A stretch of 32,948 nt of DNA, from the NCBI GenBank assembly GCA_016869175.1, contig VGEV01000025.1, positions 1 to 32,948 on the forward strand. The letters are read 5' to 3'. The notes under the pieces were generated by a model. It was not told where the DNA came from. It did no database searches and saw nothing but the letters and a program-made list of their open reading frames with translations. A program made the position numbers and the translations under genes. Shown one piece after another: positions 20,503 through 26,825 of the stretch (position 1 is its first letter; each line of letters opens with the position of its first letter). Source of the stretch: Alphaproteobacteria bacterium. Its GTDB lineage: Bacteria > Pseudomonadota > Alphaproteobacteria > GCA-2731375.

Positions 20503-21378
20503 CTAGGCTCCGGCGAAGAAATCGAGCAATCCCGCCGCTGTTGCCGCCGCCGCCTCTTCGGCCAGGAAATGGCCGCATGGCAGGCCTCGGCCCCGTACGT
20601 CGCTCGCCCGTTCCCGCCAACAGGCCAGGACGTCGAACTGCCGGCCCGTGCCGGACTTCTCACCCCACAGCGCCAGCACCGGGATGGCGAGCTTGTCGGC
20701 CAAATCGGCCTCGTCATGGGTCAGATCGATGCCGGCGCCGGCGCGATAGTCCTCGCAGGTGGCGTGAATCGTGGCGGGATCGCGGAAGCAGCGGCGGTAT
20801 TCGGCCATGGCCTCCGGCGCGAACGCGGCCAGGTCGGCGCTCCAGCCGCCCAACAAGCGCTCGAGGTAATAGTCGGGGGCGCCGCCGATCAGCCGTTCCG
20901 GCAGGTCGAACCGCTGTGCCAGGAAGAACCAATGGTAGTAGCCAAGCGCCCTGGCCCGATCGAGCTGGGCGAACATGGCTCGGGTCGGCACGATGTCGAG
21001 CACCGCCAGGCGCTCGACCGCCGCGCGATGATCGAGCGCCAGCCGATGTGCCACGCGACCGCCGCGGTCATGCCCAACCAGCCCGAAGCGCCGATGGCCC
21101 AACGCCGCCATCAGTTCGACCTGATCCTGCGCCATGCGCCGCTTGGAATAGTTGCGGTGCTCGGCATCGCCGGCGGGCTTGTCGCTATCGCCGTAGCCGC
21201 GCAAGTCGGGCGCCACCACGGTGAACCGCGCGGCCAATGCCGGCGCCACCCGATGCCACATCGCATGCGTCTGCGGATAGCCGTGCAGCAGCAGCAGCGG
21301 CGGCCCGCTGCCGCCCAGCTCCAGGTTGATCGTCACATCGCTGGTCTTGATCCGCCGTTGCTGGAACCCCGGGAGCAT
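20503..21378 (-). CDS. Alpha/beta hydrolase, fluoroacetate/haloacetate dehalogenase type
   Basis: A 291-residue alpha/beta hydrolase that matches the active site of fluoroacetate dehalogenases point for point: nucleophile D104 followed by R105 and R108 in GHDRGGRVAHR, acid D128 in VLDIVPT, halide-pocket H149-W150 in YYHWFFLAQ and Y211 in CEDYRAGA, and general base H270 in CGHFLAEEA. In the studied Rhodopseudomonas enzyme these are D110, R111, R114, D134, H155, W156, Y219 and H280; the numbering offset is 6 residues, growing to 8 and 10 near the end. The expected reaction is release of halide from a 2-haloacid to give glycolate. The start at 21378 has GAAGG eight bases upstream; 21393 is an alternative. 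It is the first gene of an operon with pncA. Confidence 0.85.
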   Translation of the reverse strand: MLPGFQQRRIKTSDVTINLELGGSGPPLLLLHGYPQTHAMWHRVAPALAARFTVVAPDLRGYGDSDKPAGDAEHRNYSKRRMAQDQVELMAALGHRRFGLVGHDRGGRVAHRLALDHRAAVERLAVLDIVPTRAMFAQLDRARALGYYHWFFLAQRFDLPERLIGGAPDYYLERLLGGWSADLAAFAPEAMAEYRRCFRDPATIHATCEDYRAGAGIDLTHDEADLADKLAIPVLALWGEKSGTGRQFDVLACWRERASDVRGRGLPCGHFLAEEAAAATAAGLLDFFAGA

Positions 21379-21398
21379 GCGCCATGCCTTCATTGTGA

Positions 21399-21426
21399 TT
21401 GTCGCTCTCGCCTCGCAAGCCATAAT
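21399..21426 (+). promoter_or_regulatory. Predicted promoter of the type III PKS operon
   Basis: TTGTCG (21399-21404), a 16-bp spacer and CATAAT (21421-21426), a five-of-six match to the -10 consensus. Initiation near 21433 would leave only a few bases before the ATG at 21437. It lies in the 58-bp region between the divergent dehalogenase and PKS genes. Confidence 0.4.
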
Positions 21427-21436
21427 GCTATGCTTC

Positions 21437-22510
21437 ATGCAGCACCAGGTTACCAGCCAGGCGCCAGGCCTCGCTCCCGCACGCCTTCTTGGACTGGCGA
21501 CCGCCGTGCCGCCTTTCGTTCTGCGGCAAGACCAGGTGGCCGAAGCCGCCGCCCGGCTGTTTGCCGGCAGCGCCGAGGAACGCGAGCGTTTGCTCGGGAT
21601 CTACCGCAACACCGGCATTGAGACGCGGCACTCGGTGGTGCCGCTCGATTGGTACCTGGAGCCGCACGGCTTCGCCGAGCGCAATGCTCTTTTTCTGCGG
21701 CACGCCACGCAGTTGGCGGCCGAGGCGGCCAGCGCCGCCCTGGCCAAAGCCGGCCTCGAGGCGCGCGAGGTCGACGCGCTGGTCTCCGTCAGCAGCACCG
21801 GCATTGCCACGCCGGCGCTCGATGCCCGTCTGCTCGCCCGCCTGCCGTTGCGTGCCGACCTGCTGCGCGTGCCGGTCTTCGGGCTTGGCTGCGCCGGCGG
21901 CGTGCTGGGCCTGGCGCGCGCCGCCGACCTGGCCCTGGCGCGGCCGGGGCGCAAGGTCCTGCTGGTGGTGGTCGAACTCTGCGGCCTGACCTTCCGTCTC
22001 TCCGACCGCAGCCGGCGCAACGTGGTGGCTACCGCGCTGTTCGGCGACGGCGCCGCCGCCGCGCTGCTGTCGACGCAAGGTTCCGGCCCGGCTCTGATCG
22101 CCAGCGGCGAGCACACCTGGCCCAACAGCCTGGATATCATGGGCTGGGACGTCGGCGCCGACGGCCTGGGGGTGATCTTCACGCGCGCCATTCCGGGCTT
22201 CGTTCGCGCCCATTTCCGGCCGGTGCTCGACCGCTTCCTCGCCGCGAGCGGCTTGACGCTCGCCGATATCGACGCGCTGGCCTGCCATCCCGGCGGCGCC
22301 CGCGTGCTGGACGCTCTCGCCGACTGCCTGGGAGCGCCGGCGGCCGCACTCGACCCCAGCCGGCGGGTGCTGGCTCGCTTTGGCAACATGTCGGCGCCGA
22401 CCGCCTTGTTCGTGCTGGCCGAGCTGTTGGAGCGAGCCCCGTGCCGCTGCTTGCTGAGCGCGCTCGGGCCGGGCTTCTCGGCCGCCTTCGCGCTGCTGGA
22501 GCGTCAGTGA
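21437..22510 (+). CDS. Type III polyketide synthase
   Basis: A 357-residue chalcone-synthase-like enzyme. The Cys-His-Asn triad is in place: C152 in GLGCAGGVLGLARA, H284 in ACHPGGARVLDAL and N317 in FGNMSAPT. Type III synthases extend an acyl-CoA starter with malonyl-CoA and cyclise the product to a pyrone or resorcinol. The following ICMT-type methyltransferase gene overlaps it (GTGA), an arrangement also known for the srs and bps alkylresorcinol/alkylpyrone operons of Streptomyces and Bacillus. This suggests alkylpyrones or alkylresorcinols made from fatty acyl-CoAs. The start is probably the ATG at 21437; 21425 is in frame too, and neither has a clear ribosome binding site. Confidence 0.93.
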   Translation: MQHQVTSQAPGLAPARLLGLATAVPPFVLRQDQVAEAAARLFAGSAEERERLLGIYRNTGIETRHSVVPLDWYLEPHGFAERNALFLRHATQLAAEAASAALAKAGLEAREVDALVSVSSTGIATPALDARLLARLPLRADLLRVPVFGLGCAGGVLGLARAADLALARPGRKVLLVVVELCGLTFRLSDRSRRNVVATALFGDGAAAALLSTQGSGPALIASGEHTWPNSLDIMGWDVGADGLGVIFTRAIPGFVRAHFRPVLDRFLAASGLTLADIDALACHPGGARVLDALADCLGAPAAALDPSRRVLARFGNMSAPTALFVLAELLERAPCRCLLSALGPGFSAAFALLERQ

Positions 22511-24636: not shown

Positions 24637-26217
24637 ATGTCTAATCCGCTAGACATCAGAAACCGCGCCGTGGCCGCCATCCTCACCAGCAAGGACCTGT
24701 TGCAACTGACCGGCATCTCCCGGGCGACGCTCAACAACTACATCGCGCTCGGCATCCTGGCGCGGCCGCGCGTGGCGCGCGGTACCGCGCCCGGCGGGCC
24801 CACCCGAATCGGCTATTTCGCCGAGGAAGCGGTCGAGCGGATCCGCGAAGCACAACGCCTGAAGGCCAGCGGTCTGGCGATGAGCGACGTCGCGGCCCGG
24901 CTGCGGCCCCAGGCCGAGACCGCGGCAAGCCTCGCCGCTGGCGTTCCGCCCGGCGCCGCCGGTGCAGCGGCGGGCGAACGGGCACCGGCCGACCAGCCGA
25001 TCGCATCCCCCGTGGCGAGCCCGCTGCCTGGCCTGCGCCTGACGGTCGACGAATTGAGCTATCCCGCCTATCTCGTCAACGCCAACTTCCAGGTCGATTG
25101 GTGGAACGACGCCGCGGCCGAGCGCCTGTTCGGTCGAGCGCGCGGGCTCGCGGCCGAGATCGAGACCCGCAGCGTGTTCCAGCTGCTGCTGGAGGCGGCG
25201 TTCCTGCGGCGGTCCGGGGAATGGCGCGAGCTGCTGCTGTTCCATGCCGGACTGGCCAAGACGCGGCTGCCGCCGGAGACTGTGCCGCGATTATTCGGTC
25301 GCCCGGCGCCGGTCGACGCGGCGTTGCTGGACGAGCTTTATCAGGAGGCGGCCTCGGTCTGGTCCCGGCCGATCGCCGAACGCAGCCTTGCATTGGCCCG
25401 GCCGGACGGCCAAGTGGAGGAACTCAGGCTCTATGCGAGCTTCTTCCGCGAAGGCATCTTCTTCGTCTATGCGCCCAGTGAAGCCGATGCCCGCGGTCTG
25501 CTGGAACTGCTCGCCCAGCGCCAGCAGGTGATCCGCAGCCTGCTGCGCCGCCGGCTGCCCTATCTCACCCCGCTGGTCGTGCTGGCGCTGCAGCTGCAGG
25601 CGGCCGAACGGCTGGCGGCGGAATTGGCGCCGGAGGACTTTTTCCAGCTGGTCAACGATTGCTGGGGCGCGCTCGATCCCCTGGCCCGCCCGCATCACGC
25701 CGCGCAGGCCCGGCACTGGGGTTCGGGCATGGTCTATTTCTTCTTCCCGCAACCCGATCGCGACCACCATTTCAACGCCATCGCCTTTGCCATCGCGGTG
25801 CGTCAGGCGATCGCTAGGGTCAACCGCGCCTGGCAGGCACGCCGGCCCTGGCTGCCACCGCTGGCGGTCAATCAGGGCCTGGCCGATGGCCGGGAGTGGT
25901 TCGGCGCCTTCCAGACCGCGGGCAGCTTCGAGTTCGTGGCGCTGGGCGACGCCACGGCGCGGGCGGTGCGCCTGGCCACCTTCGCGCAAGGCGGCGCGGT
26001 GCTGGCGGCGAAGAGCGTACTGGCGGCGATGCCGGCGGCGCTGCAGGCGCAGGTGCGGTTCGGCACGCGCCGGGGCGATGCGGCAGGCCAGGTCACCGTG
26101 CCCGGCGCCTTCGCCGCCCTGGCCAACCTGGCCGGAATGGCCGAGCCGCTGAACGCGGAAGACGCCACCCTCGCCGTCACCGAGGTCTTCGACCTGAACG
26201 AACAGGCGGCGCCCTAG
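24637..26217 (+). CDS. MerR-type HTH protein with PAS-like and degenerate class III cyclase domains
   Basis: A 526-residue protein with three parts. Residues 15-92 form a MerR-like DNA-binding head (LTSKDLLQLTGISRATLNNYIALGIL, then GYFAEEAVERIREAQRLKASGLAMSDVAARL). After an Ala/Pro-rich linker, residues 134-290 resemble a PAS or MmyB-like sensor (YPAYLVNANFQVDWWNDAAAERLFG). Residues 308-465 follow the course of a class III nucleotide cyclase, but the catalytic residues are replaced: the first metal-Asp motif reads VVLALQL, the second (normally GDG) reads HWGSGMVYFF, and the GD-x-x-N-x-x-x-R motif reads GDATARAVRL with no Asn. Cyclase activity is unlikely and the domain may bind a nucleotide or a partner. 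A small PAS-like gene follows. Confidence 0.8.
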   Translation: MSNPLDIRNRAVAAILTSKDLLQLTGISRATLNNYIALGILARPRVARGTAPGGPTRIGYFAEEAVERIREAQRLKASGLAMSDVAARLRPQAETAASLAAGVPPGAAGAAAGERAPADQPIASPVASPLPGLRLTVDELSYPAYLVNANFQVDWWNDAAAERLFGRARGLAAEIETRSVFQLLLEAAFLRRSGEWRELLLFHAGLAKTRLPPETVPRLFGRPAPVDAALLDELYQEAASVWSRPIAERSLALARPDGQVEELRLYASFFREGIFFVYAPSEADARGLLELLAQRQQVIRSLLRRRLPYLTPLVVLALQLQAAERLAAELAPEDFFQLVNDCWGALDPLARPHHAAQARHWGSGMVYFFFPQPDRDHHFNAIAFAIAVRQAIARVNRAWQARRPWLPPLAVNQGLADGREWFGAFQTAGSFEFVALGDATARAVRLATFAQGGAVLAAKSVLAAMPAALQAQVRFGTRRGDAAGQVTVPGAFAALANLAGMAEPLNAEDATLAVTEVFDLNEQAAP

Positions 26218-26320
26218 CCGCCGACGGGAAACCAGTCGCGATGCAGCAACCAACAACCAGTCAGCAACAGTCACCGGCGGCCCGCGCCGCCAGGTTGACC
26301 CGGAGTTCGGGGAGATGACC

Positions 26321-26825
26321 ATGCACGGATGCTTTGGCACGGGCTGGCTGAACGAGACGCAGCCGGCGCGCGCGCCCTTGCCGCCATTGGCCGGCGAGCG
26401 GCGGGCGGGTGCGCTGTTGCTGCGGTGTTGGCATGCGGCCCGGCGCGAGCGCCACATACCCAGCCTGGTCGACCTGGAGTTGGGACGCCACGACGCCATC
26501 TTCGAGAGCTGCTTCTTGCTGCGCGAGGATGTCGATCCGGTCAGTTCGGTCTTCATTCTGTGCGGCGAACGGGCCCGCCCCTTCTATGCCGGTCGGCCGG
26601 GCGCTGGTCGACATGCTGCCGCCGGCGGTCCATCGGACGATCGGCGAGAGCTGCAAGGCGGCCCTGACCAGCCAGCAGCCAAGCCTGGCCGAAGGGCGCT
26701 ATCGCGCCGCCGATGGCGACGAGCGGCTCTATCGTGGCGTGTTCGCGCCCGTGCTGTCGGACAGTCCCGGTTATGCCCGCTGCGGCTTCCTGCTGGGCGC
26801 CTTCGGTGAGCGCCTGGCGCACTGA
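26321..26825 (+). pseudogene. PAS-like protein gene broken by a one-base frameshift
   Basis: An ATG at 26321 (six bases after GGGGAG) opens a frame coding for LPPLAGERRAGALLLRCWHAARRE, then LVDLELGRHDAIFESCFLL and VSSVFILCGERARPFYAG. Near 26588-26594 the protein-like sequence moves to the +1 frame and continues VGRALVDMLPPAVHRTIGE, then GRYRAADGDERLYRGVFAPVL and GFLLGAFGERLAH, to a stop at 26825. Removing one base there gives a single product of about 167 residues resembling small PAS_5-type sensor proteins found in Rhodospirillales. The lesion lies in GCCGGTCGGCCGG, where a miscounted G is easily imagined. It sits 103 bp downstream of the MerR/pseudocyclase gene and may have worked with it. 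Confidence 0.65.

Follow-up and report, generated by a model that had tools for sequence, protein, structure and literature searches.

The gene at 24637-26217 of the window, the 32,948-nucleotide stretch of alphaproteobacterial DNA analysed here, probably encodes an autoregulatory PAS sensor-repressor that descends from a family of MerR-PAS-cyclase proteins and in which the cyclase fold would now serve for dimerisation or signal transmission. The features of the gene are as follows.

24637-26217, + strand: open reading frame of 526 residues; the MerR HTH comes first, then a PAS-like region and a signalling helix, and last a class III cyclase fold that is degenerate (reading frame, domain searches and alignment)
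24638-24655, no strand assigned: everted repeat TGTCTA-N6-TAGACA (TGTCTA-ATCCGC-TAGACA), candidate operator (half-sites derived from relatives)
24670-24672, + strand: GTG, codon 12, possible alternative start fitting the N-terminus of the relatives (alignment)
24685-24900, + strand: MerR-type winged HTH, residues 17-88, carrying the ISRATLNNYIALGIL motif common to the HTH-bearing members (Pfam and alignment)
25036-25491, + strand: PAS-like region with a helical insert, residues 134-285 (secondary structure, weak Foldseek matches, invariants 11/11)
25492-25569, + strand: signalling-helix linker, residues 286-311 (predicted structure and conserved invariants)
25570-26046, + strand: class III cyclase fold lacking the catalytic set, residues 312-470 (homology searches and alignment)
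25591-25593, + strand: Q319, replacing the first metal-binding Asp (homology and alignment)
25711-25713, + strand: R359, replacing the substrate-specifying Lys (alignment)
25723-25725, + strand: S363, replacing the second metal-binding Asp, so that GDG has become GSG (homology and alignment)
25957-25959, + strand: A441, replacing the transition-state Asn (alignment)
25969-25971, + strand: R445, the transition-state Arg, retained (alignment)

The 526-codon frame is open throughout. The true translation start may be the GTG at 24670 rather than the ATG at 24637, because the relatives begin at [M/V]LTSK; a clear ribosome-binding site is found at neither position. The initial annotation had described a MerR head joined to PAS-like and catalytically empty cyclase domains. 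The HTH and the cyclase fold are borne out, while no Pfam PAS match was obtained for any family member. The HTH matches Pfam MerR_1 (PF13411) over residues 17-88 with E 3.3e-4, which lies 0.5 bits below the curated cut-off, and the same model is matched by 6 of 12 family members (best E 2.4e-6). Taken alone, the window protein gives weak matches to the cyclase fold (PF00211, E 0.065; phmmer to 2w01, E 5e-5). In whole-genome protein searches, many bacterial cyclases aligned over residues 310-470, with a best E outside the family of 2e-10. At the level of the family the fold is firm, PF00211 being matched by all 12 of 12 members (best E 2e-12) and the family profile matching CyaB (3r5g) with E 4e-17. 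The PAS domain is the least secure of the domain claims. The predicted order of elements in the middle region, strand-strand-helix, a helical insert, three strands and a helix, is PAS-like, and Foldseek with a PAS-only model (pTM 0.60) returned mostly PAS domains, among them Ec DOS and the FixL PAS, with a non-significant best E of 0.096. Full-length structure modelling of two sequences (the window protein and the L009 member) gave a pLDDT of 42, too poor to judge the cyclase fold.

The 15-member alignment shows D319Q, K359R, D363S and N441A in the window protein, leaving R445 as the sole survivor of the D-K-D-N-R set. It had been noted from the sequence of the gene that both metal Asp motifs and the catalytic Asn were gone and that the Arg was kept; the alignment agrees on each of these and adds the loss of the substrate Lys. 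The residue set of an active class III cyclase is thus absent from the window protein and complete in 12 of the 14 relatives, where the second substrate position is mostly Thr. The idea that a cyclase fold has been reused to control transcription accordingly stands in part. The window protein does combine a dead cyclase fold with a DNA-binding head, and transcription is very likely its route of action, but such reuse is not a property of the architecture itself, given the intact relatives.

A search for conserved MerR-PAS-cyclase architecture and its operators, recommended at the outset, located these 14 relatives in Pseudomonadota, together with a palindrome in the own promoter of all eight HTH-bearing, catalytically intact members. 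Homology is full-length, from the HTH to the C-terminus, at 34-43% identity to the window protein. No further relatives were found in viral contigs or in plasmids, and the occurrence of the family is patchy (5 of 15 genomes of the window's order). As judged from sequence, the architecture is probably that of a family of active DNA-binding adenylate cyclases. Since 12 of the 14 relatives are intact, the predicted loss of catalysis in the window lineage is secondary, a derived state. The relative in G201, a genome from the same taxonomic family as the window, retains the Lys and both Asp residues and has A441 and A445; the relative in G240 has lost all five catalytic residues and has no PAS region. 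The window and G201 proteins form one clade with support of 97/97. Because A441 is common to both, the Asn was by parsimony probably lost first, with later losses differing between the two. Broken frames occur in 2 of the 12 relatives with the full set, as an in-frame TAA in G059 and a frameshift in G197.

Some members depart from this pattern in other ways. A subclade of two lacks the HTH and has the complete catalytic set, L009 4354-5715 (a Rhodocyclaceae MAG) and L069 5973-7307 (G638). Of the MerR domain these proteins have only the last helix, with which they begin, and neither an HTH remnant in the upstream frames nor the operator palindrome was seen. At L065 (G240), the degenerate PAS-less member and a second copy of the family gene, cut off by the end of the contig, are arranged head to head. 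Loci L066 and L071 (G503) hold a second, near-identical gene copy with the same neighbours, truncated at the contig end, which may be a strain variant or an assembly duplication.

The palindrome in the promoters of the eight HTH-bearing intact members is the 11-bp TAGACWGTCTA. With up to two mismatches allowed, it occurs in 2-4 copies per 330 bp upstream in 8/8 cases, where 0.04-0.15 are expected. A scan of the eight complete loci, about 87 kb, gave 11 copies with one mismatch or less, every one of them in the gene's own promoter. In every one of the eight, one copy sits at the -10 position, 16-17 nt after a TTGACA-like hexamer (one mismatch or less). The motif was first spotted by eye in these same regions, so that shuffles describe it rather than test it independently; independent checks are provided by the HTH-less members, of which 0 of 3 have the palindrome, by the remainder of the loci and by the spacing to the -35. 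The stricter form TTAGACWGTCYA is found genome-wide only in the gene's own promoter in G194, G197 and G571, and in G067 at the family gene and at one site 20 kb off on the same contig. Apart from that extra G067 site, the genome-wide search for TTAGACWGTCYA showed no regulon past the own promoter. Because the palindrome covers the -10 behind a TTGACA-like -35, this layout suggests autorepression by the HTH-bearing members. In classical MerR systems the operator lies in a promoter spacer of 19-20 nt and activation occurs by DNA distortion. By contrast, the spacer of the relatives is 16-17 nt and the palindrome lies on the -10 in 8/8 cases, an arrangement typical of plain repression. The window protein shares with MerR one-component regulators an N-terminal winged HTH, putative C-terminal sensor parts and probable autoregulation through an inverted repeat, and differs in that its effector part is PAS-like plus cyclase. 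MerR proteins dimerise through an antiparallel helix; modelling of the window protein (pLDDT 42) gave no dependable dimer in which to look for one. On these sequence features it is a protein with a MerR-type HTH and not a classical MerR activator.

The window's own promoter differs from this pattern. The canonical TAGACWGTCTA has no match in the window at two mismatches or less, no palindrome lies on a -10, and a promoter scan of the window, including an extended scan, gave nothing above chance. The everted repeat at 24638-24655 is a candidate operator. The everted pattern, with a spacer of 0-12, has a single occurrence in the 3.97-Mb window genome, just inside the annotated start, and the chance of a lone site falling within about 360 bp around that start is about 1e-4. 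If translation begins at GTG 24670, the repeat may lie wholly upstream of the coding region. In G059, TGTCTA-N11-TAGACA likewise occurs once per genome, at the gene's own promoter. On its own the everted repeat is unspecific in three genomes, G194, G067 and G197, whose single sites are found in other places; the window repeat counts because of its position and because its half-sites are known from the relatives.

The genes next to the relatives point to an output. A gene of a c-di-GMP phosphodiesterase family lies directly downstream in five of them (G194, G067, G197, G201 and G323). In G194, G067 and G197 it encodes a cNMP-binding domain with EAL (Pfam for G067 and G194; 75% identity for G197), and in G201 and G323 an HD-GYP protein, to which a GAF domain is added in G323. 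The G201 protein has the HDxGK and HHExxNGxGYP motifs. EAL and HD-GYP are both c-di-GMP phosphodiesterase families, and their position suggests a circuit from cAMP to c-di-GMP in these relatives. The neighbours are unrelated in G059, in G389, in the gammaproteobacterial-type G503, G593 and G571, and in the HTH-less pair. The palindrome was not found near the CNB-EAL homologues of G200, G192 and G201. No c-di-GMP phosphodiesterase gene adjoins the window gene, and its genome has no CNB-EAL orthologue, CNB and EAL proteins being present only separately. The gene directly downstream in the window (26315-26825, + strand) has an apparent frameshift near 26620, its first half being in frame from 26219 and its second half in frame from 26220 to the end at 26825; neither half has a Pfam match, and by eye the product resembles PAS-like proteins of Alphaproteobacteria. 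Elsewhere in the window, a gene at 21326-22510 (+ strand) is chalcone/stilbene synthase-like (type III polyketide synthase), and its start is overlapped by an alpha/beta hydrolase gene on the opposite strand.

What has been kept in the window protein was examined with invariants, defined as residues unchanged in 11 full-set relatives. The HTH, PAS-like region and helix together keep 24 of 26, compared with 33 of 54 for the cyclase fold (Fisher P 0.004); the PAS-like region keeps 11/11 and the signalling helix 6/6. The window's branch for the cyclase domain, measured on a fixed tree, is 0.93, compared with 0.31 or less in intact lineages, and its PAS branch is 0.73, the others being 0.57-0.77. 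No relative is close enough to the window protein for a direct measurement of selection. The GC content of the cyclase part by codon position (0.77, 0.50 and 0.87) is normal for genes of this genome. From this and the residue pattern, it appears that the domain is held as coding sequence, presumably also as a fold, and not as an enzyme. Because the PAS and helix invariants are complete and those of the cyclase are not, a role of the domain in dimerisation or transmission fits better than nucleotide sensing, which favours one of the two functions that the initial annotation had offered for it.

The chief rival is decay, in which catalysis, the partner gene and the canonical operator were lost and the frame is a leftover with no selected role. 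It holds this place because the promoters of the three degenerate members depart from the family type as well and lack its palindrome, which is as compatible with decay of the circuit as a whole as with rewiring. The window branch on the family tree is long (1.27), and the patchy distribution within the order points the same way. So does G201, the nearest relative, which has lost other catalytic residues and has two transposases directly upstream. These are identical tandem genes (DDE_Tnp_1 with DDE_Tnp_1_assoc) next to the family gene at L045 7926-10348. The nearer one stops about 170 bp short of the start of the family gene, and the pair probably cuts that gene off from its old promoter. Against decay, the frame stays open over 526 codons with a strong codon-position bias in every domain, every PAS and helix invariant is retained, and the single everted operator-like repeat of the genome lies at the start of the gene. 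We consider decay unlikely.

The second alternative makes the dead cyclase domain a sensor of nucleotides: it would bind ATP, GTP or a cyclic nucleotide, not turn it over, and signal its occupancy to the HTH. R445 and the fold are retained, and the same idea has been published for Mclx2/3 (PMC4452763). Cyclic nucleotides are probably present, since the genome (G000) encodes many other cyclases and cNMP-binding proteins; about 17 other class III cyclase domains exceed the Pfam cut-off (18 matches, two being adjacent parts of one gene), and with ten cNMP-binding domains they make up a rich cAMP-type signalling set. Nevertheless, the substrate Lys, both metal Asp residues and the transition-state Asn are lost and R445 alone is left, and it is the cyclase domain that departs most from the family, although a retained ligand pocket should be conserved. 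This function, the other one offered by the initial annotation, is in our judgement quite improbable. Class III cyclase active sites form at dimer interfaces, and with R445 kept and so many other cyclase domains encoded, the window protein could be one half of a heterodimer that gives only R445 to a composite site; this is very improbable, as the genome has no intact paralogue of the family, the Asn acting on the side of R445 is lost, and pairing of cyclases so diverged would be unusual.

We thus prefer the sensor-repressor, and its proposed mechanism starts from the family. A dimeric protein would cover the -10 with its HTH and repress its own promoter. A signal sensed by the PAS would reach the cyclase dimer by way of the signalling helix and lead to cAMP and, where the next gene is CNB-EAL or GAF/HD-GYP, the cAMP would adjust c-di-GMP. 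In the window lineage, which has no phosphodiesterase partner, catalysis would have been lost and the protein would persist as a PAS-sensing one-component autoregulator whose dead cyclase fold holds the dimer or transmits the signal.

The nearest precedent is found in Mycobacterium tuberculosis, where Mclx2 (Rv1358), Mclx3 (Rv2488c) and the active Mclx1 (Rv0386) combine a cyclase homology domain with a LuxR HTH (PMC4452763). That family has an active member and members without the metal, Asn or substrate residues, which were proposed to be regulators (PMC4452763). As in the Mclx proteins, a class III cyclase and a DNA-binding HTH are here in one chain, and both families have active and degraded members. 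However, the Mclx cyclase is N-terminal and the LuxR HTH C-terminal, with an AAA/NB-ARC-like middle, whereas in the window protein the MerR HTH is N-terminal and the middle is PAS-like. By analogy with Mclx2/3, the window protein may work alike, and it is not an Mclx member. With the class III (IIIb-like) enzymes CyaB (3r5g) and CyaC (1wc0) it shares the fold and alignment over about 150 residues, but lacks their D, K, D and N. HTH-cyclase fusions, including catalytically degraded ones, are thus already known from Mclx1-3, and the MerR-type fusion is what differs; no paper on such a fusion was found in the open full texts searched, subscription papers aside.

We know of no DNA targets for the mycobacterial cyclase-HTH fusions, which makes it difficult to find out there which of the two, cyclase or DNA binding, governs the other. 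In the present family that question becomes directly testable: both an operator and an output gene are predicted, some members are catalytically intact and others dead, and members that lack the HTH can serve as natural controls. More tentatively, we suggest that this may be an undescribed Pseudomonadota family in which adenylate cyclases sit on the promoter of their own operon, repress it at the -10 and, on a PAS signal, make the cAMP that drives a c-di-GMP phosphodiesterase encoded in the same transcript. In that case the window protein would be a natural catalysis-loss form, a transcription factor only, in which evolution has split the two outputs. If this is true, cAMP and c-di-GMP signalling would be linked within one small operon.
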